Shown here: piece after piece, positions 1-25,927 of the stretch
How positions within the stretch are numbered: the first letter of the stretch is position 1
Layout of the letters: every line of letters begins with the position of its first letter
Assembly: GCA_017550525.1 (NCBI GenBank)
Contig: JAFZOU010000119.1
Location: 1-47,589, forward strand
DNA length: 47,589 bases
Source: Bacteroidales bacterium
Lineage (GTDB): Bacteria; Bacteroidota; Bacteroidia; Bacteroidales; UBA932
Reading direction: 5' to 3'
Notes under the pieces: model-generated
What the model was told of the DNA's origin: nothing
Databases searched by the model: none
Seen by the model: the letters and a program-made list of their open reading frames with translations, nothing else
Translations under genes and position numbers: made by a program

Positions 1-40
1 TGGGTGCCATTCCTGCGGGCATTTTCTATAAGTCAAGAAA

Positions 41-2471: not shown

Positions 2472-3764
2472 ATGTTCCGTAGAATCATAGCTTTACTCGC
2501 GCTCAGCGGTCTCACCATCCTTTCCCGGGGCCAGGACAACATCGTGTACCTGGACCTGCAGGTGATGGGCCGCGGGGAAGTAAGGGACGGAGGTCTTCCC
2601 AATGCCGATGACGCCTCTCAGGACCATTCCGCCTTCTTCCTAAGCCGCAGCCGTCTGGTGGTGGGATACAAGCGCCCGGAGTTTGAGGTAAAGACCTCGA
2701 TGCAGCACTCCGGCATATGGGGACAGGCCGATAAAGGCTCCTTCAACGTTCACGAAGCCTGGATAAAGCTAAACGCTCCATTCGGCCTCTTTACAAAGCT
2801 TGGAAGGCAGGCGCTGAGCTATGACGACGAACGTATTATCGGCCCCAATGACTGGAATATGGCGGGCAATTCCCACGACGTAATAATTGCCGGATTCGAG
2901 GGTTACGGGCATAAATTCCACGTTGCAGGGGCCTTCAACCAGAGCGCAGAGAATATCAACCGCGGCAGCACCTACTATCCCGGAGGATCGGCCCCATACA
3001 AAACCATGCAGCTGGCGTGGTACCACTATGACCTCCCGGTGGCTCCCGTGGGCCTTTCCCTTATGTTCCTTAATATAGGTATGCAGGCGGGCGCGGAAGG
3101 GGCCGATGCCCATGTAGAATGGCAGCATGTGTTTGGCGGCTATGCAAAATACGCCCCAGAGAACTTCAAAGTGGAGGCCTCATACTACAGGCAAATTGGT
3201 AAAAACGAGCAAGGAATACGCCTGGATGCATGGATGGCCAGCGCCAGGGCAGCCTACAACCCCTGGAAACTGATTGGCTTCGAAGCCGGCTACGACTTCC
3301 TGAGCGGAGACGACACCTACGCCGTGCCTCAGCCCGGTCATATCGGCCTTGTGCAGCACGATGTAATTAAAGGCTTCAACCCCGTTTACGGCTCCCATCA
3401 CAAGTTCTACGGTGCAATGGATTTCTTCTACATGAGCACCTACGTGAACGGCTTCAGCCCCGGTCTCCAGAACGCCTTTGCGGGGGTAAACGTAAAGCCT
3501 ATGTCCGGGATGAACATAGGCCTTCAGTATCATTATCTTGCCATTGCAACCAAGCTTTATGATATTGGAAGCACGCTTGGTCACGAGTTTGAACTCCAGG
3601 GTTCCTGGTCCTTCATAAAGGACGTCACGCTGTCTATGGGCCTTTCCTATATGGTAGGCACTAAGAATATGCAGCTCCTGAAAAGGGCCTCCAATGACGG
3701 CCGCCTTTTCTGGGCCTGGATCTCCCTCACGGCAGCCCCAAGGATCCTGAACTACGGCTGGTAG
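2472..3764 (+). CDS. Alginate-export-like outer-membrane porin
   Basis: A 430-residue exported protein with a signal peptide (MFRRIIALLALSGLTILSRGQ). It resembles the alginate_exp/long beta-barrel porins common in Bacteroidetes. Visible signs are alternating aromatic-hydrophobic strands, the segment KLGRQALSYDDERIIG typical of these porins, and many Tyr/Trp-rich hairpins to the C-terminus. It probably forms a substrate channel in the outer membrane; the cargo is unknown. It is divergent from the amino-acid symporter across a 67-bp AT-rich gap and ends 4 bp before the convergent aldolase gene. Confidence 0.8.
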   Translation: MFRRIIALLALSGLTILSRGQDNIVYLDLQVMGRGEVRDGGLPNADDASQDHSAFFLSRSRLVVGYKRPEFEVKTSMQHSGIWGQADKGSFNVHEAWIKLNAPFGLFTKLGRQALSYDDERIIGPNDWNMAGNSHDVIIAGFEGYGHKFHVAGAFNQSAENINRGSTYYPGGSAPYKTMQLAWYHYDLPVAPVGLSLMFLNIGMQAGAEGADAHVEWQHVFGGYAKYAPENFKVEASYYRQIGKNEQGIRLDAWMASARAAYNPWKLIGFEAGYDFLSGDDTYAVPQPGHIGLVQHDVIKGFNPVYGSHHKFYGAMDFFYMSTYVNGFSPGLQNAFAGVNVKPMSGMNIGLQYHYLAIATKLYDIGSTLGHEFELQGSWSFIKDVTLSMGLSYMVGTKNMQLLKRASNDGRLFWAWISLTAAPRILNYGW

Positions 3765-3768
3765 GGGA

Positions 3769-4587
3769 TTATCCCTTCATTACCTGATACTTCTCCTTCA
3801 GGAGTTCCACCACTGGATCCATTGCCTTGGGGAATACCTTCCTGAGGTCAATTTCATCGCTCTCTGACAGCACTTTCTTGAGGGCACGCATGAAGTTGTC
3901 CTTGATTTCCGTTGCAAGGTTCACCTTCACAATACCGTTGTGGATGGCGTCCTTCACTTGGTCGTGAGGAATGCCTGAAGAACCGTGCAGAACAAGCGCC
4001 ACGGGCGTTGCAGCGTGGATGGCGGCAAGGCGGGGGATGTCAAGGTGAGGAGGAAGTTTATAGAATCCGTGGGCCGATCCAATGGACACCGCCAGGGCCG
4101 ATACCCCCGTCCTGTTCACAAACTCAACGGCCTGCTCAGGGGTGGTGAAGCCGCCGCCCTGCTCCTGGCCAAGTTTAGCCACGTAACCGAGCTCTGCCTC
4201 TACATTGGCCCCGTACGGCTTTGCCATCTCCACCGCTTTGGCCGATGTCTCCACATTCTCCTCGAAAGGCTTCTCCGATGCATCAATCATAACGGAGTCA
4301 AAACCTTCATCCAGGCAGCGCTGGACAAGTTCCAGGCTGGGACCGTGGTCCAGGTGGATGTAGCCCTGCAGGCCGTAATCGGCCAAAACCTGCCTACCCA
4401 TCTTGTAAGCCGTATGAAGGCCCATGTAGTCAATGGAAGAGCGGGTGAGCTGGAGCATCACGGGGGCATTCATTGCCTGGGCGGCCTTGGCTACGCAGAG
4501 GAGCGTTTCATAGTTATAGAAATTGGTTGCCAGCACAGCTGTTTTATTGGCCTGGCACTCATAGAGGACTTCTTTAATGGTTTTCAT
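3769..4587 (-). CDS. Class II ketose-bisphosphate aldolase (Fba/GatY/KbaY-like)
   Basis: A 272-residue zinc-dependent aldolase that cleaves fructose- or tagatose-1,6-bisphosphate to DHAP and glyceraldehyde-3-phosphate. Motifs include HLDHGPS (catalytic Asp and a zinc His), VEAELGYV, the phosphate-loop region VSIGSAHGFYK with a zinc His, and LHGSSGI with the third His, then NLATE. Length is normal for the short class IIA/GatY branch. Minus-strand TATATTTG at 4616-4609 is the likely promoter, giving a leader of about 15-20 nt. Whether the substrate is fructose or tagatose bisphosphate cannot be decided from sequence. Confidence 0.93.
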   Translation of the reverse strand: MKTIKEVLYECQANKTAVLATNFYNYETLLCVAKAAQAMNAPVMLQLTRSSIDYMGLHTAYKMGRQVLADYGLQGYIHLDHGPSLELVQRCLDEGFDSVMIDASEKPFEENVETSAKAVEMAKPYGANVEAELGYVAKLGQEQGGGFTTPEQAVEFVNRTGVSALAVSIGSAHGFYKLPPHLDIPRLAAIHAATPVALVLHGSSGIPHDQVKDAIHNGIVKVNLATEIKDNFMRALKKVLSESDEIDLRKVFPKAMDPVVELLKEKYQVMKG

Positions 4588-16079: not shown

Positions 16080-16164
16080 ATCTTTTTCCGGGAAAAATGA
16101 ATGAAACAGGGGGGCGTTTTGTCATGGCCGATATGATATATGTCGTGCCCGACTGCGTTGGCTG

Positions 16165-16234
16165 TCATGCCCGACTTGATTGGGCATCTGACGTTGTCAT
16201 TTCGAGCGGAGCGTAGCGAAGCCGAGAAATCTCA
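16165..16234 (+). repeat. Dispersed repeat R, copy 2
   Basis: Stem-loop TCATGCCCGACTTGATTGGGCA followed by the CATTTCGAGCGGAGCG...GAGAAATCTC block. It directly adjoins the promoter of small RNA A; the repeat-to-promoter junction (TTTATTATTGCCGATTCAG) is the same as at copy 3 and small RNA B. Confidence 0.85.
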
Positions 16235-16241
16235 ATTTATT

Positions 16242-16410
16242 ATTGCCGATTCAGAAAAAAGCATTACCTTTGTAATGAGAAATAAACCGCGTATTAGGAT
16301 GAGGTAATTCGCTAAGTGCAAAGTCCCCGCCTCGAGCCTCACCTTTGGTAAAAATCCCACGCGTTTTCTTGGGGCAAGAATAAAGGATGCTTTCGAAAGC
16401 ATCCTTTTTT
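16242..16410 (+). ncRNA. Small RNA A, convergent with toxin A
   Basis: Promoter TTG then exactly 19 nt then TACCTTTG (16265-16272); predicted start near 16278. The transcript of about 130 nt ends in a perfect 26-bp palindromic terminator (16382-16407) followed by T6. There is no convincing ORF. It shares GTAATTCGCTAA...TCGAGCC with small RNA C and AAAGTCCCCG...CTCACCTTTGGTAAA with small RNA B. The terminator abuts the stop codon of the convergent toxin-like gene, overlapping by 2 nt. Proposed antitoxin RNA. Confidence 0.7.
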
Positions 16411-16813
16411 ATTTTTTGATTGCTGTTATGCAATACTGAACCTTTTCATGATTGCCTCGACGCACACCAATGGTCATCTTTACTAAGCCGATGCTATGGC
16501 AATCATAATGCATAACAATCATTTTATCAAATGGCTTTTGATTACCATTGTTTTTTGCCGGAACCTCGCCAACCTTAATTGCATTTTCTAAGATCTCATC
16601 AAGAAGAAGTACAGCTAGAGTCGAATTATATGTTCTTGAAGCATGAGTGCATGTTTCTGTAATAGATACGAAACGAATATTTATATACTCGTTTAATGAA
16701 TGATTGAAACAACTACGAGATGGATTTGCTATTTTCCATTCTCTGTAGAAGTTCGATATTACTCTTCGTCTAATACGAATGTCTTGTGGGCTATCTCCTG
16801 TAGGAATATCCAT
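16409..16813 (-). CDS. Toxin-like protein A (possible BECR/RelE-fold RNase)
   Basis: A 134-residue AT-rich gene homologous along its length to 25457-25927. Conserved features include MDIPTGDSPQDIR, FNHSLNEYINI, SITETCTHASRTYNSTLAVL with a His and Ser/Thr pair, LDEILENAI, NQKPFDKM and VQYCITAIKK. The pattern resembles the LPD3/phage BECR (Barnase-EndoU-ColicinE5-RelE) group, but I cannot confirm it. No signal peptide. Its 3' end meets small RNA A. A third, beheaded copy lies at 17264-17341. A conserved leader element (16979-16886) upstream may drive it. Toxin function is inference. Confidence 0.65.
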   Translation of the reverse strand: MDIPTGDSPQDIRIRRRVISNFYREWKIANPSRSCFNHSLNEYINIRFVSITETCTHASRTYNSTLAVLLLDEILENAIKVGEVPAKNNGNQKPFDKMIVMHYDCHSIGLVKMTIGVRRGNHEKVQYCITAIKK

Positions 16814-16885
16814 AGGTCAATGACAAATGAGAGAGGCACCATATTCAGTATGCCTTAAGCAGATTAAAAACAATAGTCTTTTTGT

Positions 16886-16979
16886 GAAGGGAGCTGCTTC
16901 CAAGACACGGAAGACTTACCATACTCCTTATTTCATTCCCGGCCGATTCCGACGACCCAGTCTTTCCAAAACAAATATA
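16886..16979 (-). other. Conserved 94-bp transcribed element, copy 2
   Basis: Near copy of 12074-11982, again starting with TATATTTG on the minus strand and including AAGGAGTATGGTAAGTC and the CTTCC hairpin. It lies 73 bp upstream of toxin A in the same direction, so it could be its promoter and leader. Confidence 0.5.
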
Positions 16980-17020
16980 ACATTATTTTCGTTATGCCCG
17001 GTCATACCAGCCCTAATTTC

Positions 17021-17082
17021 CGTCATGCCCGACCTGATCGGGCATCTCTTTTGTCATTTCGAGCGGAGCCGAGAAATCTCAC
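17021..17082 (+). repeat. Dispersed repeat R, copy 3
   Basis: TCATGCCCGACCTGATCGGGCA stem-loop plus CATTTCGAGCGGAGCCGAGAAATCTC, immediately followed by the promoter of small RNA B. Confidence 0.85.
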
Positions 17083-17089
17083 TTTATTA

Positions 17090-17265
17090 TTGCCGATTCA
17101 GAAAAAAGCATTACCTTTGCAATGGTCTGATAAGACGCAGTTTTCAGGGCTAATAAGCCATTATACAAAAGTCCTCGTTTGGGCGGGGCTCACCTTTAGG
17201 TAAACTGGAGCTGTGCAAGACTGAGGCAAAGATCCAAGGCACATCAGAAATGATGTGCCTTTTCT
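17090..17265 (+). ncRNA. Small RNA B, toxin lost
   Basis: Promoter TTG, 19 nt, TACCTTTG (17112-17119), identical to that of small RNA A. Predicted transcript from about 17125 to a terminator with an 11-bp perfect stem AAGGCACATCA and GAAA loop (17236-17261). AAAAGTCCTCG...GCTCACCTTTAGGTAAA matches small RNA A. It converges on a 25-codon remnant of a toxin A homologue. Confidence 0.68.
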
Positions 17266-17341
17266 ATTCTACTTCCAAGGATGTTATACAATACTGAATT
17301 TTCAGAAGAGTTTTATGCTTAACTCCTACTAGAAGCTTCAC
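17264..17341 (-). pseudogene. C-terminal remnant of a toxin A homologue
   Basis: Read on the minus strand, 25 codons ending TAG give VKLLVGVKHKTLL and IQYCITSLEVE. This aligns with VKMTIGVRRGNHEKVQYCITAIKK at the end of toxin A. Everything upstream has been replaced by dispersed repeat R copy 4. The surviving part is exactly the end facing small RNA B. Confidence 0.75.
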
Positions 17342-17342
17342 T

Positions 17343-17400
17343 AGCCCGACTTGATCGGGCATCTGACGTTGTCATTTCGAGCGCAGTCGAGAAATCTCAA
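17343..17400 (+). repeat. Dispersed repeat R, copy 4
   Basis: AGCCCGACTTGATCGGGCAT stem-loop plus CATTTCGAGCGCAGTCGAGAAATCTC. It abuts the point where the toxin remnant ends, so the repeat may mark the deletion junction. Confidence 0.8.
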
Positions 17401-17420
17401 TAAAAAGCCGATAGGTTAAG

Positions 17421-17509
17421 GGGCAGCTGGTTACCGGTTTCCCCGGGTTTAAATGCCCTTTTGGCATGTGGCAACCGCAAAAACGCCATTTTTAGGTAAT
17501 CAGCTGCCC
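17421..17509. repeat. Inverted repeat upstream of nuclease-helicase 2
   Basis: GGGCAGCTGGTTACC (17421-17435) is mirrored by GGTAATCAGCTGCCC (17495-17509) with one mismatch. The 59-bp interior holds a further ATGCC/GGCAT hairpin. It ends 6 bp before the conserved promoter block, so it could be a regulatory or mobile palindrome. Confidence 0.7.
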
Positions 17510-17515
17510 AAAGCA

Positions 17516-17554
17516 CGCAGTTTTCCACAAGATTATTCTTATATTTGTGAGAGC
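17516..17554 (+). promoter_or_regulatory. Conserved promoter block of nuclease-helicase 2
   Basis: Near-identical copy of 12083-12121 (CGCAGTTTTCC through TATATTTG at 17540-17547 and GAGAGC). The ATG at 17569 follows 21 nt after the -7 box. Confidence 0.8.
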
Positions 17555-17568
17555 GATTTCCCAGTTTG

Positions 17569-19614
17569 ATGCAGCGGTTTTATTACAGCGCAACATGCAG
17601 TAGTTTTCTTTCTCAGGATGCAGAAGGCATTCTGGGCCGTCTGAGTGCATATAATGAGTTTGACCTTACTCAGGAGCAGCGTGACGCATGGCTGGAAGAA
17701 ATTGCCATAATGAAGGACACTCTGAAAGGTCTTGGGAAGTCTGGTCAGATAGTTTTTGAGTACACAATTCCGCGTCTTGGAAAGCGTGTAGACGTTGTCC
17801 TTCTTGTAGACGGGATTGTCTTTACAATTGAGTTCAAAGCAGGCGCTGACGAGTATCTTGTCAACGACAAAGAGCAGGTTTGGGACTATGCCCTGGATCT
17901 TAAGAATTTCCATGAGGAGAGCCGGAATCTTGTAATAGTCCCTATCCTTGTTGCAACTGAAGCAAAAGAGTACTCAAACAGTTTCCAGTGCCAGTATGAC
18001 GACAAAGTCTACAATCCTCTTTTCTCTAACTCCCAAACGCTCCTAGGCATTATCAAGGCCATCCTTGAGCATGAGCCGGAACATCCCTCAATTGAAACTC
18101 ACGAATGGCTCTACAGCCGTTATAATCCCACTCCTACAATTATCCAGGCAGCCTCTGCCCTCTATATGAATCACAGTGTAGAGGACATCACTAAGCATGA
18201 GGCCGATAAAGCCGGAATTGACACCTGCACGGCCTTTATTCTGGATGTGATTAAACGCTCTAAGGAAAACCATCAGAAGAGCATTTGCTTTGTCACAGGT
18301 GTCCCTGGCGCGGGTAAGACTCTTGTTGGCCTTAACGTTGCCATTCAGCAGGAGCAGGGTGACCTTGCTGTGTATCTTTCCGGAAATGGTCCGCTGGTGA
18401 AAGTGCTCACAGAGGCTCTGGCGCGAGATAAGGTGAAAAAGGAGAAGGATGCCGGCAATAAGTGCACAAAGACTGAGGCTGAACGTCAGGTGAGTCGGTT
18501 TATCCAGATAATCCACCGCTACCGTGATAATATGCTTGCAAAGCTCAAGCAGCCTATTCAGGGTAATGTCATTGAAATTGACCCCGCAAAGGTCTCTAAG
18601 GCTGCAAAAGCAACTGCCGCCGAGGTAGAGAATGTGGCTATTTTTGATGAGGCCCAGCGCATGTGGGATATGCGTCATCTTAGCGCCTGGCTTGCCCGAA
18701 AAAAGGGTCTGGCGGGTTTCCCTATGTCGGAAGGCGAATTCCTTATTTGGTCCTTGGATCAGCATAAGGACTGGGCAACAATAGTGTGTCTTGTTGGTGG
18801 AGGACAGGAAATTAATTCCGGCGAAGGTGGAATTGGTCTATGGATTCAGGCTTTGAACGAAACGTTCCCGGATTGGCAGGTGTATATATCGGACCGTCTC
18901 ACGGATAAGGAGTACGCGGAGGGGAATGTGGCTAAGCTTCTTTCTGGTAATCCTAATGTTCACATGGAGCGGAATCTGCATTTGGCGGTATCTCAGCGGT
19001 CTTATAGGGCAGAGACTTTGTCTTTGTTTGTGCACCAGTTCCTGGATTTGGATTTTGCCGGGGCGCGAGCTACTTATGCCGAGATTAAGGAGCGTTATCC
19101 TATTGTTCTTACCAGGGATTTGGATAGGGCTAAGGCGTGGCTGCGTTCTCATGCCAGAGGGTCTGAGCGGTACGGGATTCTGGTTTCTTCCAAGGCTTTC
19201 CGTCTGAAGCCGCTGGCGATTGATATTCGTTCTCAGGCCGATATTGTTCCGTGGTTCCTTAATCCTATCACGGATATACGGTCGTCGCTGTTTTTGGAGG
19301 ATGTGGCTACGGAGTTTGATATTCAGGGGCTTGAGTTGGACTGGACGTGTCTAGTGTGGGATGGGGATTTTAGGTATGATCCGGTGAAGCACTGCTGGCA
19401 GCATTTTAATTTCCGGAGTGATAGGTGGCAGAATATTAACCAGGCCGAGGGGCGGGCGTATCAGCTGAATGCGTATCGCGTGCTGCTTACTCGTGCGCGA
19501 CAGGGGATGGTGATTTGCGTTCCGGAAGGAAATGTGGCCGATGGTACCAGGCTGCCGGAGTTTTACGATTCTACTTACCGGTGCTTTAAGGAGCTGGGGG
19601 TGGAGGAGATATAG
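17569..19614 (+). CDS. DUF2075/Schlafen-3-like nuclease-helicase 2
   Basis: A 681-residue relative of the gene at 12134 with the same layout but low overall similarity. The N-terminal nuclease-like motif has RVDVVLLV with Asp75 and FTIEFKAG with Glu88 and Lys90. Walker A is GVPGAGKT (244-251) and Walker B AIFDEAQR (Asp360). LVGGGQEI (motif III-like), DIQGLELDW (motif V) and LLTRARQGM (motif VI) follow. A TTG at 17566 directly precedes the ATG; ATG 17569 is preferred. The shared promoter with the other paralogue suggests co-expression. Restriction of foreign DNA or RNA is plausible from the family; the target is unknown. Confidence 0.85.
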   Translation: MQRFYYSATCSSFLSQDAEGILGRLSAYNEFDLTQEQRDAWLEEIAIMKDTLKGLGKSGQIVFEYTIPRLGKRVDVVLLVDGIVFTIEFKAGADEYLVNDKEQVWDYALDLKNFHEESRNLVIVPILVATEAKEYSNSFQCQYDDKVYNPLFSNSQTLLGIIKAILEHEPEHPSIETHEWLYSRYNPTPTIIQAASALYMNHSVEDITKHEADKAGIDTCTAFILDVIKRSKENHQKSICFVTGVPGAGKTLVGLNVAIQQEQGDLAVYLSGNGPLVKVLTEALARDKVKKEKDAGNKCTKTEAERQVSRFIQIIHRYRDNMLAKLKQPIQGNVIEIDPAKVSKAAKATAAEVENVAIFDEAQRMWDMRHLSAWLARKKGLAGFPMSEGEFLIWSLDQHKDWATIVCLVGGGQEINSGEGGIGLWIQALNETFPDWQVYISDRLTDKEYAEGNVAKLLSGNPNVHMERNLHLAVSQRSYRAETLSLFVHQFLDLDFAGARATYAEIKERYPIVLTRDLDRAKAWLRSHARGSERYGILVSSKAFRLKPLAIDIRSQADIVPWFLNPITDIRSSLFLEDVATEFDIQGLELDWTCLVWDGDFRYDPVKHCWQHFNFRSDRWQNINQAEGRAYQLNAYRVLLTRARQGMVICVPEGNVADGTRLPEFYDSTYRCFKELGVEEI

Positions 19615-19621
19615 GGGAGTA

Positions 19622-19735
19622 TTTGGAAATTAAAGAGTTTGTAGTATAGTTGTAATGCGGAGAGAAATAACCGCTGAAACCAGTCTGCGAAACTGGGGAC
19701 CCCTAAGGACTAAGGATTTGCCTTAGTCCTTTTGC
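19622..19735 (+). ncRNA. Small RNA D, toxin lost
   Basis: TTTG (19622-19625), exactly 19 nt, then TATAGTTG (19645-19652). The transcript of about 78 nt begins near AATGCGGAGAG. It has hairpins GCGG/CCGC (19657-19674) and CCAGT/ACTGG (19680-19696) and terminator stem AAGGACTAAGG (19705-19731). Nearly identical to small RNA E up to the terminator, whose stem sequence differs on both sides yet still pairs. It starts 8 bp after nuclease-helicase 2 and overlaps a toxin remnant. Confidence 0.72.
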
Positions 19736-19766
19736 TTAAATTGCCATTGATATTAAAAGAGATTTC
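19710..19766 (-). pseudogene. C-terminal remnant of a toxin E homologue
   Basis: The minus strand reads EISFNINGNLSKRTKANP and stop. This aligns with the end of toxin E, FFFIDGNIYKKTKDNLGL. Only about 18 codons survive. The stop codon lies within the terminator stem of small RNA D, the same geometry as in module E. Confidence 0.65.
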
Positions 19767-19795
19767 TGTATTTTTGTATACTAAGTGTTATAGTA

Positions 19796-19893
19796 AATGG
19801 AAGATACTACCGCCACTTCCGCAACGGAAAACTATATCGTTTTGTGACCTATGCTACCATCGAGGCAATTAAGGAGGTGAGATTGGTTGGTTG
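19796..19893 (+). pseudogene. Truncated DUF1653 gene fragment
   Basis: Codons from 19805 give YYRHFRNGKLYRFVTYATIE, matching the start of the intact DUF1653 gene at 22254, then diverge and stop. The ATG at 19797 is out of frame by one base relative to the match. A TATTTTTG box (19769-19776) still precedes it. Confidence 0.75.
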
Positions 19894-19920
19894 ATTGATA
19901 ATCTAAGTTAAAGAATCATT

Positions 19921-21000
19921 ATGGAAAACGAAGATCTCCTTAATCAATACAACGAGGTCCGCGAATGCGAATACAAGGGTCGCCGATACCTAGCCCGCGA
20001 CAATGGGGCCATCTGCCGCCTTCCCAAAGAAGGAGGTCAGCCCAGCAAGCTAGATAATGTCTGGTGCTTCGGCACCAAGAATCCAGAAAACGGATACAAG
20101 ATTTTCACTGGCAATATCCGTGTCCATCAGGTTGTCTGCACGGCCTTTCATGGCCCAGAGCCCGAGCCCCATATGGTTGTGGACCACATTGATACCAACC
20201 GCTGTAATAATCGGCCGGTGAATCTCCGTTGGCTTACCAGGCTTGAGAATGTTCTCAATAACCCGGTTACCAGAAAAAAGATTATCTATCTTTGTGGTAG
20301 TATCGAGGCGTTCATTGAGAATCCGTCCATACTTCGTGCCAAGGCCATACCTCCTAACTTAACATGGATGCGCACAGTCACCAAGGAGGAGGCTGCTAAT
20401 TGTCTGAAACACGTTGAGCGCTGGGCTAAAGAAGATAATCCTAAACCCGCTATATCTACTGGCATTGGTCTTGACGAGTGGGTTTTTTCAGATGACGAAA
20501 TGGCTATGGCGGCAGAGTGGAACAAAAGTAATCCTAACTCCGGATACAAACCATATGCAGTTCAAAAGGCAGAAATTGAAGAAGCCAATCGCCGCTATAA
20601 TGAGGAGCAGAATGGCCTCAAAGACTCACTTACGCCTGGAGCAAAACAATTGAACTGGAAAACACTTGCCGAGTTTCCGCAGATACCACAAAAGATAACC
20701 GATACGCCACTGCAGGACTACCTAACACGTTTACCGAAGGGAGCCATATATACTAGGAACCAATGGAGTGAATCCCCGGTTTATGATGCTGCTATGGCAG
20801 AAGATGGAAGTCATCTGGCAGTAGTGACGAAGATCTCCAGTGTCACAAACTATGCTCTATCCGAGGTGTATTTCCAAGATGGATTCTTCGTCCATAAGAG
20901 CATCCGCACATTCTTCTCAGAAGATGGCGCACAGAAGTTTTTCACTGAATCATTGGGCCGTGAATGGACTGGCGGGCATGTGCTGGAGGACGATTGTTAA
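19921..21000 (+). CDS. HNH endonuclease-like protein
   Basis: A 359-residue protein. Residues about 60-115 hold an HNH nuclease module: RVHQVVCTAFHG, then VVDHIDTNRCNNRPVNLRWLT with His89, the Asn pair and NLRW typical of phage and mobile HNH proteins. The N-terminus (CEYKGRRYLARDNGAICRL) looks like the NUMOD4 segment often fused to HNH domains. The remaining 240 residues are not recognised. AT-richer than the resident genes. Single-gene unit with ATG 25 bp after the DUF1653 fragment. Function could be homing, restriction or phage-derived. Confidence 0.75.
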   Translation: MENEDLLNQYNEVRECEYKGRRYLARDNGAICRLPKEGGQPSKLDNVWCFGTKNPENGYKIFTGNIRVHQVVCTAFHGPEPEPHMVVDHIDTNRCNNRPVNLRWLTRLENVLNNPVTRKKIIYLCGSIEAFIENPSILRAKAIPPNLTWMRTVTKEEAANCLKHVERWAKEDNPKPAISTGIGLDEWVFSDDEMAMAAEWNKSNPNSGYKPYAVQKAEIEEANRRYNEEQNGLKDSLTPGAKQLNWKTLAEFPQIPQKITDTPLQDYLTRLPKGAIYTRNQWSESPVYDAAMAEDGSHLAVVTKISSVTNYALSEVYFQDGFFVHKSIRTFFSEDGAQKFFTESLGREWTGGHVLEDDC

Positions 21001-21050
21001 CTTCATTCTAGAAAAAGACATTATCTTTGTTGCTACAAAAGTCATTAGTT

Positions 21051-22106
21051 ATGAGAAAGTTGACGACAATCATATTGGCAATATTGCTGACAGTTTTTTC
21101 TGCCTATGCACAGCGCTCTGAGGGCACTGCGATGGCGAATCTTAATGGGCGTTCTCTTGTTGGGAACCTTCCCAGATTGACCACTTCTGCCGTTGTGGAA
21201 GGGACCGTCGTCTTAACTATTAAGGTAGATCAGTATGGTAATGTAACTGAAGCAATTGCAGGAGCAGAAGGGACATCTATTACCAACAACAGTGTCTGGA
21301 ATGCAGCCAGATCTGCTGCACTCCGCGCTCATTTTGACATTAAAGCAGATGCCCCGGCACTGCAGACAGGAACCATCACATTCACATTCGGAAGCGGGAC
21401 TAGTGTCAGACCAAGTATTGACTATGATTTAACTAGTCTCAAAGAGTTAGTCGAAAATAAACAATACGGAGAGTTTATCATACGGGCTTTGTTTTATGAT
21501 GACTACAGGGATCTTGTGTTCCTGGTTGAAGAAGATGATTATATTATCCCTATTCGTTTGTTAAAGAAAGATTTGGGCGCAGAAAAACGTTACCGTGATT
21601 TGAATATCCAACGAGGCGATACTCTGATCATAAAAGGGGTGTTAACCGAGATTTATGTAAACAGGGAAGAGTTTAAAGGGCTAACTGAGGCGACAATTAT
21701 AGAGGCTTTCAGATGTGAAAGAGATGATTCTTTATTAGAGGAGCCTAAAGAATATAGCATTGATTTTGCTTCGATCAAAAAAGATCAGAATACTGAGCCG
21801 TTCCAGTTGGTTGAAGAGAAACCCTCATTCAATGGCGGAGATGCTAACGAGTTCTCAAAGTGGGTCAACTCACACCTGAAGTATCCAAAGGAAGCAGATT
21901 GTGCCCAAGGACGTGTCACTGTTCAGTTTACAGTAGATATTGACGGTAGTGTCAAGAATGTTTCGGTGTTGCGTGGTGTTGAGCCCTCATTGGATGCAGA
22001 AGCCGTCCGTGTTGTATCCCGATCTCCTAAATGGAAGCCTGGAAAGAGTAAAGGCAAGCCAGTCCCTGTAAGATATACTTTCCCGGTCATTTTTCAGCCC
22101 AGGTAG
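21051..22106 (+). CDS. Exported protein with two TonB C-terminal-like domains
   Basis: A 351-residue exported protein (signal peptide MRKLTTIILAILLTVFSAYA). The last 100 residues match the TonB/energy-transducer C-terminal domain: FNGGDANEFSKWVNSHLKYP, GRVTVQFTVDIDGSVKNV, GVEPSLDAEAVRVVSRSPKW, PVRYTFPVIF. A weaker copy lies near the N-terminus (VVEGTVVLTIKVDQYGNVTE). The middle is unrecognised. There is no N-terminal membrane anchor typical of TonB itself, so it is more likely a periplasmic relative than an energiser. TATCTTTG at 21022-21029 rules out the earlier frame start at 21027. Confidence 0.78.
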   Translation: MRKLTTIILAILLTVFSAYAQRSEGTAMANLNGRSLVGNLPRLTTSAVVEGTVVLTIKVDQYGNVTEAIAGAEGTSITNNSVWNAARSAALRAHFDIKADAPALQTGTITFTFGSGTSVRPSIDYDLTSLKELVENKQYGEFIIRALFYDDYRDLVFLVEEDDYIIPIRLLKKDLGAEKRYRDLNIQRGDTLIIKGVLTEIYVNREEFKGLTEATIIEAFRCERDDSLLEEPKEYSIDFASIKKDQNTEPFQLVEEKPSFNGGDANEFSKWVNSHLKYPKEADCAQGRVTVQFTVDIDGSVKNVSVLRGVEPSLDAEAVRVVSRSPKWKPGKSKGKPVPVRYTFPVIFQPR

Positions 22107-22134
22107 GTCGCGAGTAGAGTATCTTCTGACAATG

Positions 22135-22200
22135 AGATTTCTCGACTACGCTTCGCTCCGCTCGAAATGACAAGATGCCCGATCAGGTCGGGCATGACGG
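22135..22200 (-). repeat. Dispersed repeat R, copy 5 (inverted)
   Basis: GAGATTTCTCGACTACGCTTCGC and CAGGTCGGGCATGAC read as the reverse complement of the other copies. It lies between the TonB-domain gene and the DUF1653 gene. Confidence 0.85.
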
Positions 22201-22253
22201 AATCGAATCGGCCTAAAAAATAAATCGGCCATAATATCGGCCCCCAAAAACCT

Positions 22254-22469
22254 ATGAACGAATACTACCGCCACTTCCGCAACGGAAAACTCTACCGCTT
22301 CGTGACCTTCGCCACCATCGAGGCCACGGGGGAGGAAGCCGTCGTCTACCAGGCAATGTACGGCGACCACCGCTACTGGATCCGCCCCCGCGCAAACTTC
22401 TTTGAAGAAGTTGAGTATGATGGAAAGATGGTGCCAAGGTTCCAGAAAGTGGAAAATGCGGGGGAGTGA
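22254..22469 (+). CDS. DUF1653 domain protein
   Basis: A 71-residue protein with the full DUF1653 pattern: YYRHFRNGKLYRF, ATGEEAVVYQAMYGDHRYWIRP, FFEEVEYDGKMVPRFQKV. These small SH3-like proteins are widespread; function unknown. GC-rich codon use fits the resident genome. An N-terminal fragment of a second copy survives at 19796-19893, 2.4 kb upstream, implying duplication followed by decay. Confidence 0.88.
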   Translation: MNEYYRHFRNGKLYRFVTFATIEATGEEAVVYQAMYGDHRYWIRPRANFFEEVEYDGKMVPRFQKVENAGE

Positions 22470-22532
22470 TTGAAATCCTTGCTTCTGAGCTAATTTTTTC
22501 GTAACTTTAAAAAACTATCCGACAGTTAAAGA

Positions 22533-23639
22533 ATGAGCGAATTTGATGAATATATCCGGCAGGGAGAACCGGGAAGAAAAGAGAAGGCGTCTGCCTGGCA
22601 GACGGCAATTGGCCTTCAGGATGTAGATGGGCTAAAGCCATCGGCATACTTGATTGATACAGCAAGAAAACACATTGAGGGAGACATCACTATAGAGGAT
22701 GTCAAACAGATGCTGGATTCTTATTATAAGTCAAAAACCGCCAGGACAGAAGTTGAGGATAATAGAACAGAAGAGGCTGATAAAGTATCCGCGCGTATAG
22801 AAGAGCTTCTTACGGAAAAATCATTTTCATTCTCTCCGGAGTATTTAGTAAGAATTCATCGACATTTGTTTCAGGGAATATTCAAGTTTGCCGGTAACTA
22901 TCGCGATTATGATATCACTAAACGGGAATGGGTCTTAGACGGCGATACAGTCTTGTATGCCAGCACGTCAATGATTACTCAGACATTGACCTATGACTTT
23001 TCTCAAGAGAGACAGGTCAATTATTCATCTCTTAACACTGATAAGGCCATTGAACAAATAGCCAAGTTTATTTCTGGTGTGTGGCAAATCCATCCTTTTG
23101 GAGAAGGTAATACCCGTACGATAGCAGTGTTCGCTATGAAGTATCTTCAATCGTTCGGATTTGAAGTGAAGAATAATATGTTTAAGGACCACTCCTGGTA
23201 TTTCCGCAATGCCCTTGTACGGGCCAATTATAACAACTACCCTAGAGGAATTCAGGCTACTGATGAATACTTGATTCTTTTCTTCCGAAATCTTATCCTT
23301 GGTGAGAGAAATGAATTAAAGAACCGTTATTTATTGGTGTCCTCACCCCAAAGTGCCAAGTTATCGGCCCCAAAGTGCCAAAATGACACTTTGGACTGCA
23401 CGTTGGAAGAATTGGCCATTAAAGAAAGAACTCTGAATCCTTCAATTACTATGGCACAACAATACCCCTGCGAAACCTGCCCCTTCAGGGCAAAGTACGA
23501 CAACAACCCCAAATCCCTCGCCGGACGCATCTGGCGCTGGCATATCAATTTCTGCCCCGGCTGGAAGAACTACTTCACCCACCAGGACGAGGAAACCAAA
23601 CTGGCACTGAGGGAGAAATATAACTTCAAGAAGTACTGA
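22533..23639 (+). CDS. Fic-family AMPylase with fused VbhA-like head and foreign Cys-rich tail
   Basis: A 368-residue protein in three parts. Residues 1-65 resemble a VbhA-type antitoxin helix (AIGLQDVDGLKPSAY, then IEGDITIEDV) whose inhibitory S-x-x-x-E-G is here L-x-x-x-D-G. Residues 90-265 form the Fic domain with HPFGEGNTR (187-195), which transfers AMP to target proteins. From about 285 a winged-helix typical of this subfamily begins (LEELAIK, NPSIT) but stops abruptly at Met307. After it comes YPCETCPFRAKYDNNPKSL...NFCPGW, a separate small Cys-rich protein type. Base composition jumps from AT-rich to GC-rich at about 23455. ATG 23451 could also be an internal start. Confidence 0.85.
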   Translation: MSEFDEYIRQGEPGRKEKASAWQTAIGLQDVDGLKPSAYLIDTARKHIEGDITIEDVKQMLDSYYKSKTARTEVEDNRTEEADKVSARIEELLTEKSFSFSPEYLVRIHRHLFQGIFKFAGNYRDYDITKREWVLDGDTVLYASTSMITQTLTYDFSQERQVNYSSLNTDKAIEQIAKFISGVWQIHPFGEGNTRTIAVFAMKYLQSFGFEVKNNMFKDHSWYFRNALVRANYNNYPRGIQATDEYLILFFRNLILGERNELKNRYLLVSSPQSAKLSAPKCQNDTLDCTLEELAIKERTLNPSITMAQQYPCETCPFRAKYDNNPKSLAGRIWRWHINFCPGWKNYFTHQDEETKLALREKYNFKKY

Positions 23640-23648
23640 TTATCGGCC

Positions 23649-24065
23649 TTACAAAGCCCGGACTAGATCCTCCAGATTGCCCACCACGGCATCAAAGAGT
23701 TTGTACATAAGCTCCGGCTCCACCATCTCAGGGATATAAGCGATAACCTTCTTCCCGGCGCCGGCCATCCACCCGGCCTCGGTGTGAGCGCTGCGGCCGC
23801 AGGGGAGTACAAGGACACAGGTATCGGCCTCATTAAGGGCCGATAAATCCGCCTGGAACTGCTTTTCCGCAAGGGGATGGCTCAATCCTTGAGCGTACTC
23901 CTCAAACGTCCAATTCGGGGCGTTTTCGTCCACGTCCGTCCAATGGAAGCCCGCACCGCCGTGAGGAGGATTGCGGAAGTCATAGACCGTGTGGCCCTCC
24001 TGACGAAGGCGCTTCACCACTTCAGGGTAATAAGGATTTCTCCAGCTGGATGCAACGTAAATCAT
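23649..24065 (-). CDS. Nucleoside 2-deoxyribosyltransferase-like protein
   Basis: A 138-residue protein with a Rossmann-like fold of the nucleoside deoxyribosyltransferase/DUF4406 type: MIYVASSWRNPYYPEVV at the N-terminus, DFRNPPHGGAGFHW, and LVLPCGRSAHTEAGWMAGAGK, where the Glu corresponds to the catalytic nucleophile in deoxyribosyltransferases. Members hydrolyse or exchange N-glycosidic bonds of nucleotides; the substrate is unknown. Minus-strand TATCTTCG near 24085 is a likely promoter. GC-rich native codon use. Convergent with the Fic fusion gene, 9 bp apart. Confidence 0.8.
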   Translation of the reverse strand: MIYVASSWRNPYYPEVVKRLRQEGHTVYDFRNPPHGGAGFHWTDVDENAPNWTFEEYAQGLSHPLAEKQFQADLSALNEADTCVLVLPCGRSAHTEAGWMAGAGKKVIAYIPEMVEPELMYKLFDAVVGNLEDLVRAL

Positions 24066-24130
24066 AGCAGATGAATTGGTTCACGCGAAGATAAGAAATT
24101 TGTTTGGAAAAGGAATATGTGTAGATTTTA

Positions 24131-24241
24131 TTTGCAAATAAAGAAATAGTGACTATCTTTGCAATGCGGAGAGAAATAACCGCTGAAACCAGTCCGCGAA
24201 ACTGGGGACCCTTAAAGACCAAGGTTGTCCTTGGTCTTTTT
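24131..24241 (+). ncRNA. Small RNA E, convergent with toxin E
   Basis: TTTG (24131-24134), exactly 19 nt, TATCTTTG (24154-24161). The transcript starts near AATGCGGAGAG and is about 76 nt long. It has hairpins GCGG/CCGC and CCAGT/ACTGG, and terminator stem AAAGACCAAGG with TTGT loop (24214-24239) followed by T. The loop sequence TCCGC can also pair with the 5' GCGGA, so two folds compete. The last 30 nt are antisense to the final codons and stop of toxin E. Confidence 0.75.
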
Positions 24242-24757
24242 GTATATATTGCCGTCTATAAAGAAAAAAACCTCGTCTTTGTCGTAAGCCTCCCCCCTAA
24301 ACACTCTTTTAGCATAGTCATCTAATTGATTAACATTTAAAGGCAAGCGATGATTTGTGATACAAGCAAAAGCAGATTGCCGGGATGCTTTACTTGCATT
24401 ATGAGATAGTTTGTCAATAATAAGTGAAGATTTTACATCAATAAAGACACCTCGATCAATCATTATATCTGGGGTGTATCCATTGTCAATACTTAATCCA
24501 AACAATCCTCTCAGAATCCTTTCTCTTGCATTGATTTCAGGGAGAATATATACCTTAATCTGATAATCTAATGCAAGCACTTTAGCAACATCTAATACCC
24601 GATTGTAGTCTTCGGCCAGGACTGATTTGATGAGATGTTTCATCACAACCGCTTTTCCATCCTCAAAAACAGAAACAAATTGTTTTTCGATAGGTCTTGA
24701 GTAAATCTCTTTCCTTTCTTCAAGAGTATAACTCCGATAATTGCTATTGCTCAACAT
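24212..24757 (-). CDS. Toxin-like protein E (CdiA_C/restriction-fold nuclease candidate)
   Basis: A 181-residue AT-rich gene. GYTPDIMIDRGVFIDVKSS has the D...DxK arrangement of restriction-endonuclease-fold nucleases. It is followed by KASRQSAFACITNHR, like the Gln-containing helix of CdiA C-terminal tRNA nucleases. Upstream, VYILPEINARERILRGLFG is also typical of that group. ATG 24757 is taken; the frame extends to a TTG at 24790. TATCTTTG at 24837-24830 (minus) gives a 68-nt leader with a CTCCAT/ATGGAG hairpin. The stop (24214-24212) lies at the base of the small RNA E terminator. The family match is tentative. Confidence 0.65.
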   Translation of the reverse strand: MLSNSNYRSYTLEERKEIYSRPIEKQFVSVFEDGKAVVMKHLIKSVLAEDYNRVLDVAKVLALDYQIKVYILPEINARERILRGLFGLSIDNGYTPDIMIDRGVFIDVKSSLIIDKLSHNASKASRQSAFACITNHRLPLNVNQLDDYAKRVFRGEAYDKDEVFFFIDGNIYKKTKDNLGL

Positions 24758-24852
24758 TCTAATCCCAATCACACTATTATGATATGACAATTATACCTCC
24801 ATTTTTTCGTGGATGGAGAACCACACGCACAAAGATATGAAATGGCTATAAG

Positions 24853-24976
24853 CACGGTGGGGGTTAAGTGATTGTTACACAGAATGTTACAGGATTCTTT
24901 GGGAAAACCGGTAATCCCAAAGGATTCTGTAACTGGCTGATAGTTAGCGGGTTAAGCTCCACCCAATCGGCATTAC
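24853..24976. repeat. Palindromic intergenic repeat, family P, copy 3
   Basis: The core at 24898-24921 matches copies 1 and 2 with two changes in the left half (GGGAAAACC for GGGATTACC). GTGGGGGTTAA on the left and GGGTTAAGCTCCACCC on the right form the outer arms. AATCGGCATTAC at the right end is the mirror of GGTAATGCCGAT at the left end of copies 1 and 2. Confidence 0.82.
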
Positions 24977-25042
24977 AAGGGAGGGATGTGCGGAGTTTAG
25001 CAAATAATCCGTAACTTTGAGACGGAAAGGATTTATCGGCAT

Positions 25043-25249
25043 ATGAAAATTGAAGAAGCCATAGTGTACCTCCTGGCTAGTTCCGGGTACGGAATGCGGA
25101 CGGAGCAGATTGCCCGGGAAATCAATTCAAGGGGCCTCTGTGTCCGCAGGGACGGCCAGCCGGTGACTGACAAACAGGTTTACGCAGTGATCATGTCCCA
25201 CCCGGAGACTTTCGTAAAGTCCGAGGGCAGGATAAGGCTGATGATATAA
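25043..25249 (+). CDS. HARE-HTH-like winged-helix protein
   Basis: A 68-residue protein that is essentially one domain: KIEEAIVYLLASSGYGMRTEQIAREINSRGL, then RRDGQPVTDKQVYAVIMSHPETF and SEGRIRL. This matches the HARE-HTH/HB1-ASXL winged helix, which in bacteria is linked to DNA-modification and restriction systems. It could be a stand-alone DNA-binding protein or the remnant of a larger one. The ATG at 25043 lies about 30 nt after a gtaactttg box. Confidence 0.78.
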   Translation: MKIEEAIVYLLASSGYGMRTEQIAREINSRGLCVRRDGQPVTDKQVYAVIMSHPETFVKSEGRIRLMI

Positions 25250-25251
25250 CT

Positions 25252-25332
25252 ACCTTACACACCGGCTTTGTGGAGCAGACGGAAAAGTACTGCTCCGTCC
25301 TTGAGAAGTGGCTGGAAGAGGTGGAGCACTAA
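25252..25332 (+). pseudogene. Possible C-terminal gene remnant
   Basis: Directly after the winged-helix gene, a frame reads TLHTGFVEQTEKYCSVLEKW and a few more residues to TAA with no start codon. It could be the tail of a lost gene or chance. No family recognised. Confidence 0.3.
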
Positions 25333-25353
25333 AGTGAAAATTGACTCCAAGTG

Positions 25354-25487
25354 CTTGTTATTCTAAAAAGAATATGTACCTTTGTAGTGGAATCGTCACG
25401 GGGAATTCGCTGAAGGGTTGACAACCCTTTTGAGCAAATGCTTGATTCGAGCCCCTTCAAAAGTCGCAGCCTAGGCGGCTTTTATTT
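25354..25487 (+). ncRNA. Small RNA C, convergent with toxin C
   Basis: TTG at 25355-25357, 19 nt, TACCTTTG (25377-25384). The transcript of about 98 nt from near 25390 has an inner hairpin GGGTT/AACCC and an outer stem GGGG...CCCC enclosing AATTCGCTGA and TTCGAG, elements shared with small RNA A. Terminator stem AAAAGTCGC/GCGGCTTTT (25459-25483) with a T-rich tract. Its last 28 nt are antisense to the 3' end of toxin C. Confidence 0.7.
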
Positions 25488-25927
25488 TTTTCTTTTCTTT
25501 TCCGCTTTCTCTTCCTTCTTCTCTCATTAGGGGAATTATTACTACTGGAAGTAATGCTATATTGTACATAATCACCTTTGGAAGGTTGATATCCAACAAT
25601 CAAACGTATGCCTTTGTATCGCATTACATAGATTTCCGAGAAGGCTTTTTGATTTTTGTCATCTGACTTGTGCGGGCCATGAGAAACAATTACGGCATTG
25701 GATAGGATCTCTGTTAGGTCCATAACCGCAAGCGTAGATTCATAAGAGCGCGCTGCATGCTCATATGTCTCGTTGATTGATATGCCTTTGACCTTTATTA
25801 CTGCATTCAATGAGTTGTTCCAAACAGTCTTGGAAGGATTGTTTGCAATCCATCCAGCATAATAATCTTTGATGATTTTCTCACGGGCCTTAATATCTTC
25901 CCGCGTTTTACCCCTCGGTATCTCCAT
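25457..25927 (-). CDS. Toxin-like protein C (homologue of toxin A)
   Basis: A 156-residue gene matching toxin A: MEIPRGKTREDIKAREK, WNNSLNAVIKVKGISINETYEHAARSYESTLAV, LTEILSNAV, NQKAFSEIYVM, VQYSITSS. After that the two diverge: here the frame reads on through low-complexity RRRKRKRKRKEK codons and the small RNA C terminator, ending DF-stop, so the tail is probably read-through rather than conserved sequence. The promoter is a perfect TTTG-19-TATGTTTG on the minus strand (-7 at 25953-25946). AT-rich, likely acquired. An RNase role is inferred from a loose resemblance to BECR/LPD3 proteins. Confidence 0.68.
   Translation of the reverse strand: MEIPRGKTREDIKAREKIIKDYYAGWIANNPSKTVWNNSLNAVIKVKGISINETYEHAARSYESTLAVMDLTEILSNAVIVSHGPHKSDDKNQKAFSEIYVMRYKGIRLIVGYQPSKGDYVQYSITSSSNNSPNERRRKRKRKRKEKNKSRLGCDF

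Follow-up and report, generated by a model that had tools for sequence, protein, structure and literature searches.

In type III toxin-antitoxin systems (ToxIN, CptIN, TenpIN, and AbiQ), the gene for a structured, pseudoknotted RNA that blocks the toxin directly precedes the toxin gene, and both are transcribed together. ToxI has been described as an RNA pseudoknot (PMC5772629), and a tandem repeat array is presented as a key feature of type III antitoxin RNAs in a report that also describes AbiF/RCd22 of Clostridioides difficile (PMC12373285). In that phage-encoded system, a structured RNA of ~100 nucleotides (nt) ending in a terminator neutralizes the toxin in cis and in trans by direct binding, so such an RNA can act this way outside the ToxIN families. 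Among temperate phages, MuF toxins carry an exchangeable C-terminal toxin domain, and the immunity gene just downstream is described as encoding a small protein (PMC5576092, PMC11699363). Here, we report on a 47,589-nt contig of a Bacteroidales bacterium (GenBank assembly GCA_017550525.1, contig JAFZOU010000119.1; hereafter, the window) in which five small RNA units, A to E, converge on genes or gene fragments for putative toxins of the LPD3 and CdiA_C-like families. RNA and protein are almost certainly a specific pair, and the structured RNA is probably an antidote that acts on the toxin protein in a type III-like manner.

Opposite-strand small RNAs that meet the 3′ end of a toxin gene are also known from type I pairs such as bsrG/SR4. 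The usual, though not universal, type I toxin is a small hydrophobic peptide, whereas toxins A, C, and E measure 134 to 192 amino acids (aa); the system further differs from type I in its conserved pseudoknotted RNA and in the lack of cognate complementarity outside the overlap. RalR/RalA, reportedly a DNase toxin with a small-RNA antitoxin, is called type I. The first-pass annotation of this DNA, which set the layout apart from type I pairs with peptide toxins and from type III operons, was right about the layout on both counts but, given RalR/RalA, drew the contrast with type I too sharply. The likeness to type III that we propose from sequence is a structured, pseudoknotted RNA that blocks the toxin directly. 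Unlike type III antitoxins, however, the RNA is convergent, downstream, and behind its own promoter box; it is a single unit without tandem repeats, and it accompanies other protein families and phage-head fusions. RCd22, as described, differs in lying upstream of its toxin gene and being co-transcribed with it, in carrying two abiF motifs (RF03085), and in its Abi_2/AbiD/F family toxin. The described MuF immunity partner is a small protein, whereas the downstream partner here is a convergent RNA. LPD3 and PBECR domains have been described inside phage polyvalent proteins, with no RNA partner in the available part of that description (PMC5512222). Titles and abstract openings in the openly licensed literature yielded no RNA antidote for LPD3, CdiA_C, or MuF toxins, which is weak evidence of absence.

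Layout of the units and recurrence of the LPD3 pair

The five units lie on the + strand. Each has the consensus TTG-19-TAnnTTTG, with one mismatch in D alone, and each closes with a hairpin and a T run. The terminators of A, C, and E overlap the final codons of intact open reading frames (ORFs) on the − strand. Opposite B and D, the toxin gene is reduced, as judged by eye, to 3′ fragments, with translations that end in ...VGVKHKTLLKIQYCITSLEVE and a stop (facing RNA B) or ...ISFNINGNLSKRTKANP and a stop (facing RNA D). The layout that the first-pass annotation ascribed to all five units therefore holds throughout for promoter and terminator, but for an intact convergent gene only in A, C, and E. 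Its division of the proteins into two unrelated toxin-like families was borne out: A and C belong to LPD3 (PF18798), E is weakly CdiA_C (PF18451), and the B and D fragments match these respectively. Units A and B share a 63-nt repeat (95% identity) that takes in the RNA A promoter, and units D and E share one of 96 nt (82%), promoter included. Fold z-scores were −4.0 for E, −3.1 for B, −2.9 for D, and −2.3 for A; at −0.7, RNA C is unsupported by energy alone. The features, by position in the window, are as follows.

16243..16272, + strand: RNA A promoter, TTG-19-TACCTTTG, read from the sequence; within the A/B repeat
16273..16417, + strand: RNA A, alpha type, in which a pseudoknotted core (16273-16378) is followed by a terminator hairpin (16382-16408) and its T run; model R1, 89.8 bits (A itself is in the model), and family covariation
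16409..16813, − strand: putative toxin A, LPD3-like, 134 aa; PF18798 at E value 7e-5, under the cut-off; AlphaFold2 predicted local distance difference test (pLDDT) score of 96
17112..17119, + strand: RNA B −7 box, TACCTTTG, promoter same as A; read from the sequence
17121..17264, + strand: RNA B, alpha type, orphan, with core (17121-17230) and terminator (17237-17264); R1 match at E value 1.8e-8, B being outside the model
17264..17344, − strand: 3′ fragment of an LPD3 toxin gene opposite RNA B; translation LVKLLVGVKHKTLLKIQYCITSLEVE and a stop
19623..19652, + strand: RNA D promoter, TTG-19-TATAGTTG, one mismatch; read from the sequence
19654..19735, + strand: orphan RNA D of the E type, terminator at 19705-19733; likeness to E, and a row of model R2
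19710..19763, − strand: 3′ fragment of an E-type toxin gene opposite RNA D; ISFNINGNLSKRTKANP and a stop versus FFFIDGNIYKKTKDN, compared by eye
24132..24161, + strand: RNA E promoter, TTG-19-TATCTTTG; read from the sequence
24163..24242, + strand: RNA E, with hairpins GCGG/CCGC and CCAG/CUGG and terminator (24214-24240); 4-locus alignment A11 and fold z-score of −4.0
24212..24790, − strand: putative toxin E, CdiA_C-like, up to 192 aa, with an ATG ~12 codons in; PF18451, 16.3 bits, below the cut-off
25355..25384, + strand: RNA C promoter, TTG-19-TACCTTTG; read from the sequence
25386..25491, + strand: RNA C, gamma type, with terminator (25459-25491); core recurs in loci L039 and L042
25457..25927, − strand: putative toxin C, LPD3, 156 aa; PF18798, 39.8 bits, above the cut-off of 27

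To characterize the LPD3 pair elsewhere, we scanned species genomes for LPD3 proteins with two conserved motifs, which favors one subfamily, and kept the best 80 of 119 relatives. These 80 loci come mostly from metagenome-assembled genomes (MAGs) of rumen and gut Bacteroidales; two MAGs are labelled Lachnospiraceae and Clostridia. By script count, a promoter box lies on the opposite strand, 45 to 260 nt past the stop, in 75 of 76 testable LPD3 loci, compared with 48 of 336 background ORFs (other ORFs of at least 100 aa in the same loci). The full TTG-18..21-TAnnTTTG is present in 53 of the 76 and in 13 of the 336. This count left out L065, whose stop is absent from the locus, and three loci at contig ends (L016, L043, and L052). 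The sole miss was L072, in which an insertion-element hit in the toxin end is suspected by eye. In the set used for RNA ends, which includes L052 and leaves out L072, a terminator-like hairpin was found in 75 of 76 RNAs with a box. Because the hairpin was chosen automatically, RNA ends are approximate: 58 of 75 lie no more than 9 nt from the end of the toxin stop codon, with 39 inside the toxin ORF and 36 outside it.

Searches of 295 genomes of the order gave a consistent picture from both sides of the pair. Starting from the protein, relatives of toxin C were found in 7 of the 295 (the window's own genome included), and a convergent TAnnTTTG box lies near the toxin end in all nine LPD3 loci from this search, A and C among them. 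Starting from the RNA, the alpha model found five sites, four of which adjoin LPD3 genes (in G298, the toxin is split over two frames in the protein search), while the fifth, in G130, adjoins an LPD3 gene with internal loss; RNA A and the G191 locus belonged to the model. The repeated co-occurrence at different genomic sites that the first-pass annotation looked for was thus found, and the layout is real and more frequent than chance would give. Toxin homologs mostly have the adjacent RNA (promoter box in 75 of 76 testable LPD3 loci; the E family was judged on three loci only). In a class-wide sample, LPD3 was present in 1 of 395 genomes, namely, the window's own. The LPD3 pair is scattered in the order, yet not rare. 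No LPD3 gene was confirmed in viral contigs, and tblastn with toxin A found none in plasmids or phages; since MuF-LPD3 fusions do occur in plasmid and phage collections, those negatives reflect divergence.

Further copies of the RNA turned up beside intact and decayed toxin genes. An extra alpha copy in the flank of L059 adjoins an intact second toxin, and this locus (2941-4202) holds two tandem LPD3-RNA pairs with both toxin ORFs open. A second alpha copy in L063 adjoins a C-terminal toxin fragment. Together with RNAs B and D and the RNA of L102, it faces a decayed toxin gene, as expected if the RNA is an antidote that is kept while the toxin decays. RNA B was missed by the search of the 295 genomes with the alpha model, which was stricter than the one that matched it at an E value of 1.8e-8. 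Judged by eye, L102 also has two more promoter-plus-hairpin units that start with GCAGACGAAATAGT (2105-2190 and 2270-2350), possibly other small RNAs. Patterns for the alpha2, beta, and gamma RNAs had no match in viral contigs.

RNA folds and toxin proteins

By motif, the RNAs of 76 loci comprise 50 of alpha type (as A and B), 18 beta, 2 delta, and 6 others. Among these last six, the alpha model matches L029, L061, L095, and L077 at E < 0.001 and, weakly, L056 and L064 (E values of 0.026 and 0.12). Across 61 model-aligned alpha sequences, 84.3% of cells in the structure are paired, compared with 69.9% after shuffling, and none of 500 shuffles was as good; both sides have changed in 20 of 26 pairs. 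The pseudoknot, formed between a CCCC loop and a GGGG before the terminator, is 99.1% paired with 11 double changes, although its pairs were outside the alpha model. The beta RNA is a near-invariant closed hairpin whose 3′ arm is the terminator, and with one double-changed pair in 13 sequences its structure is little tested. The gamma core of RNA C is found again in two loci (L039, 3543-3606; L042, 1621-1700), each with only one toxin. There, a single promoter precedes a unit in which the gamma RNA comes first and an alpha RNA follows, an arrangement that resembles a polyimmunity array. Alignments inspected by eye show single RNA units with no tandem array, and the window RNAs lack internal repeats of at least 22 nt.

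At the Rfam gathering score, the window and 20 further loci gave only tRNAs, and the RNA units, which the first-pass annotation had left open to belonging to a known family, had no match. At an E-value threshold there were only sub-threshold matches, taken as chance; region D was covered at the gathering score only.

Toxins and RNAs have diversified together. When RNA types were mapped onto a tree of 67 LPD3 proteins (A, C, and 65 of the 80 loci), nine changes sufficed, which is the minimum for 10 groups and was reached in none of 200 shuffles. Toxins paired with conserved alpha RNA features are 41 to 74% identical to A. Of the 67 aligned members, 66 match LPD3 at E ≤ 1; against the PF18798 cut-off of 27 bits, C scores above (39.8) and A below (23.4). 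The three E-family proteins scanned score 15.6 to 16.3 bits for PF18451 (cut-off, 26.6), E itself having the highest value. The AlphaFold2 model of LPD3 toxin A (pLDDT, 96) is a mixed helix/strand fold with conserved H57 in a helix (residues 48-58) and T130 in the last strand (124-131). PBECR RNases are described with the same His-in-helix, Thr-in-last-strand layout (PMC5512222). The criterion that we used for the BECR fold was a His in the N-terminal helix and a Ser/Thr near the C terminus, on a core of one helix plus 4 to 5 strands. A structure prediction for toxin E was set aside (pLDDT, 46).

Other resources returned little for these proteins. A PDB sequence search left LPD3 unmatched and gave one irrelevant match for toxin E at an E value of 5; PHROGs gave no match to the three window toxins or to that of L097 (described below), and PADLOC none to A, C, or E. 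A ToxN/AbiQ-type identity was rejected, since Pfam gives LPD3 or weak CdiA_C, PADLOC none, and LPD3 is without a PDB sequence match.

E-type RNAs and phage head-protein fusions

Toxin E is similar to the C-terminal region of a Segatella hominis MuF head protein (36.9% identity). This protein matches Phage_Mu_F at 64.8 bits and is encoded among phage genes, although the record is filed as a plasmid. Directly after the MuF gene, on the opposite strand, is an E-type RNA with a TATATTTG box and a terminator. A pattern built from three E-type RNAs matched one viral contig (L097), beside a toxin E relative: the convergent ORF encodes 141 aa that are 55% identical to toxin E. All four E-type RNAs (E, D, Segatella, and L097) contain the core GRAACCAGYCYGCGAARYUGG, and one pair of the first hairpin appears, by eye, as C-G, U-A, and U-G. 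The second hairpin of RNA E is drawn differently by the minimum-energy fold and by the 4-locus alignment. Protein searches with toxin E found 1 of 295 genomes (its own), no viral contig, no phage, and one plasmid record. Searched as DNA, RNA E was present in 1 of 150 genomes, again only its own. Model R2, built for the E-type RNA, gave 10 places in 9 of 267 genomes and no further convincing site; the eight places outside the window were judged by eye to be chance, being mostly coding-like and having no promoter box just upstream.

We then compared MuF proteins, using the MuF part alone as the query and reading three listed records besides Segatella. In two of them, L114 (48.7 bits) and L116 (55.8 bits), an LPD3 domain scoring above the cut-off of 27 forms the C terminus. 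A convergent box follows the stop at 70 nt in L114 (with a second at 110 nt) and at 83 nt in L116, and the predicted RNAs, judged by eye, have a common loop, UUGYAGUU, and end at a hairpin and T run. The third, L115, stops after the MuF part; it lacks an LPD3 match, and the 260 nt past its stop hold no box, so the RNA is absent where the toxin domain is absent. A direct profile comparison between the solo LPD3 alignment and the L116 domain did not reach significance, which leaves Pfam as the basis for relating the two. With Segatella, L114, and L116, each of the two toxin families is seen fused to the C-terminal end of a phage head protein and accompanied by a convergent RNA, which goes beyond what the first-pass annotation had described.

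Proposed mode of action and genomic setting

We propose that the units are mobile cassettes of a toxin plus an RNA antitoxin. The LPD3 protein, or the unrelated CdiA_C-like E protein, would act as a toxin inside the cell, encoded either by a solo gene or, in Mu-like phages of Bacteroidota, as the C-terminal domain of MuF. A convergent gene would give rise to an RNA of ~60 to 220 nt from its own Bacteroidota promoter, with a terminator near the toxin stop. Once folded (with a pseudoknot in the alpha type), the RNA most likely binds and blocks its cognate toxin, as in ToxI/ToxN and RCd22/AbiF, and it may also act in trans. If a carrier gene acquired a toxin domain at its 3′ end by exchange, the downstream antidote would travel along, and the need to travel with a C-terminal domain could account for the convergent downstream placement. 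The sequences show the pairing, the alpha RNA structure, the congruence with the toxin tree, the MuF fusions, and the RNAs beside toxin fragments; we infer toxicity of the protein, its neutralization by the RNA, direct binding, and the cargo logic. The covarying pseudoknot, the conserved unpaired bases, the type-by-type co-evolution, and the orphan RNAs all fit an RNA that binds protein.

Several observations weigh against this proposal. The E family with a toxin comprises three loci, and the comparison with toxin-less MuF proteins covers a single case, L115. A PDB fold search with the LPD3 model returned no match at E ≤ 0.001; with the model of E being poor as well, the "nuclease-like" label of the first-pass annotation is unproven, and H57 and T130 are all that would point to a BECR-like RNase. 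In the alpha RNA, the first helix (59.5% paired) and inner helix 5 (53.4%) are both weak, and one base of the pseudoknot strand differs in the second copy of L063. L027 holds a second alpha RNA (2444-2550) without a recognizable LPD3 gene; it faces a short ORF ~0.4 kb upstream of an intact LPD3 gene. Toxin C sits alone on a long, poorly placed branch, and congruence between RNA and toxin is also expected from tight linkage alone.

The chief alternative is that the convergent RNA works as an antisense: it would pair with the 3′-terminal part of the toxin mRNA and so cause that mRNA to decay, while its fold would serve only its own stability. RalR/RalA offers a precedent for an enzyme toxin whose small RNA is of type I. 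Of 75 RNAs, 39 reach into the toxin ORF, with overlaps of up to ~38 nt, and a toxin transcript that read through would be complementary to the RNA over its full length, a point against direct action on the protein. Yet 36 of the 75 stop short of the ORF, RNAs facing fragments have little left to pair with, and pairing does not need conserved unpaired motifs or a covarying pseudoknot. Duplex energies between RNA and the toxin mRNA 5′ region plus ORF, outside the 3′ overlap, did not separate cognate from non-cognate partners in a random subset of 20 alpha and 12 beta pairs (alpha, −49.2 versus −49.0, mean rank 10.4 where chance is 10.5 of 20; beta, −42.5 versus −41.5, rank 5.9 where chance is 6.5 of 12). 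We consider this mode unlikely. It is less probable still that RNA and protein form one ribonucleoprotein in which the RNA is cofactor, guide, or sensor of a defense or regulatory enzyme. Strict pairing and co-evolution would fit an obligate complex equally well, and candidate defense-system genes are also present in the window; however, the alpha RNA has, by eye, no variable guide-like segment, the phage-head fusion fits a delivered toxin, and the RNA outlasts the protein gene in B, D, L102, and L063, the opposite of what a cofactor predicts.

Duplication of the modules could also be explained if the RNA did nothing to the protein and were just a conserved cassette end, such as an insulator, a terminator, or a site of recombination. 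We regard this as very improbable, given that the RNA has its own promoter box in 75 of 76 loci, that the covarying structure is full length, and that the RNA types are each tied to one toxin clade. Finally, some alpha RNAs contain, by eye, an 11-codon frame, as if the transcript encoded a small type II antitoxin peptide. The frame is not kept, other rows reading ATG-TAA or ATG-AGG-TAA at that place and having indels that are not multiples of three (by eye), so that this idea is scarcely credible.

For now, we treat these candidate antidote RNAs as a variant of RNA-antitoxin systems, with a fair chance that they are a class of their own. In the broader version of the proposal, which we advance tentatively as somewhat short of an even bet, they would form a novel class that spans toxin-antitoxin systems and immunity to the polymorphic toxins of phages: convergent downstream RNAs of several folds would neutralize at least two unrelated toxin families, solo and as phage-head cargo, the placement would let the antidote be inherited with C-terminal domains, and orphan RNAs would immunize against phage-delivered toxin. 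If true, polymorphic-toxin immunity, which is described as a small protein (PMC5576092), would become a broader concept that includes RNA antidotes for toxin domains of phage heads, and toxin loci that lack an immunity gene might be accounted for. RNA-antitoxin biology would also gain protein families and an architecture, and several RNA folds recognizing related proteins would make a good test set for RNA-protein recognition. The setting is some gut Bacteroidales and their phages, in which RNA may control toxins in a way that is new.

Between the RNA-toxin units, the window encodes a Schlafen group 3 helicase protein (PADLOC PDC-S41; 17566-19614) and a Fic protein (PDC-S72; 22533-23639), so that this part of the window looks like a defense or accessory island. 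Short repeats (GTCATGCCCGACYTGATYGGGCATCT and the GAGAAATCTCA motif) border units A and B at 16142-16211, 17022-17047, and 17339-17401 and may mark duplication or cassette ends. The start of a DUF1653 gene (22262-22335) is copied at 19804-19877 (74 nt, 84% identity), and the closeness of this copy to the toxin fragment opposite orphan RNA D suggests a recombination event that removed the toxin.

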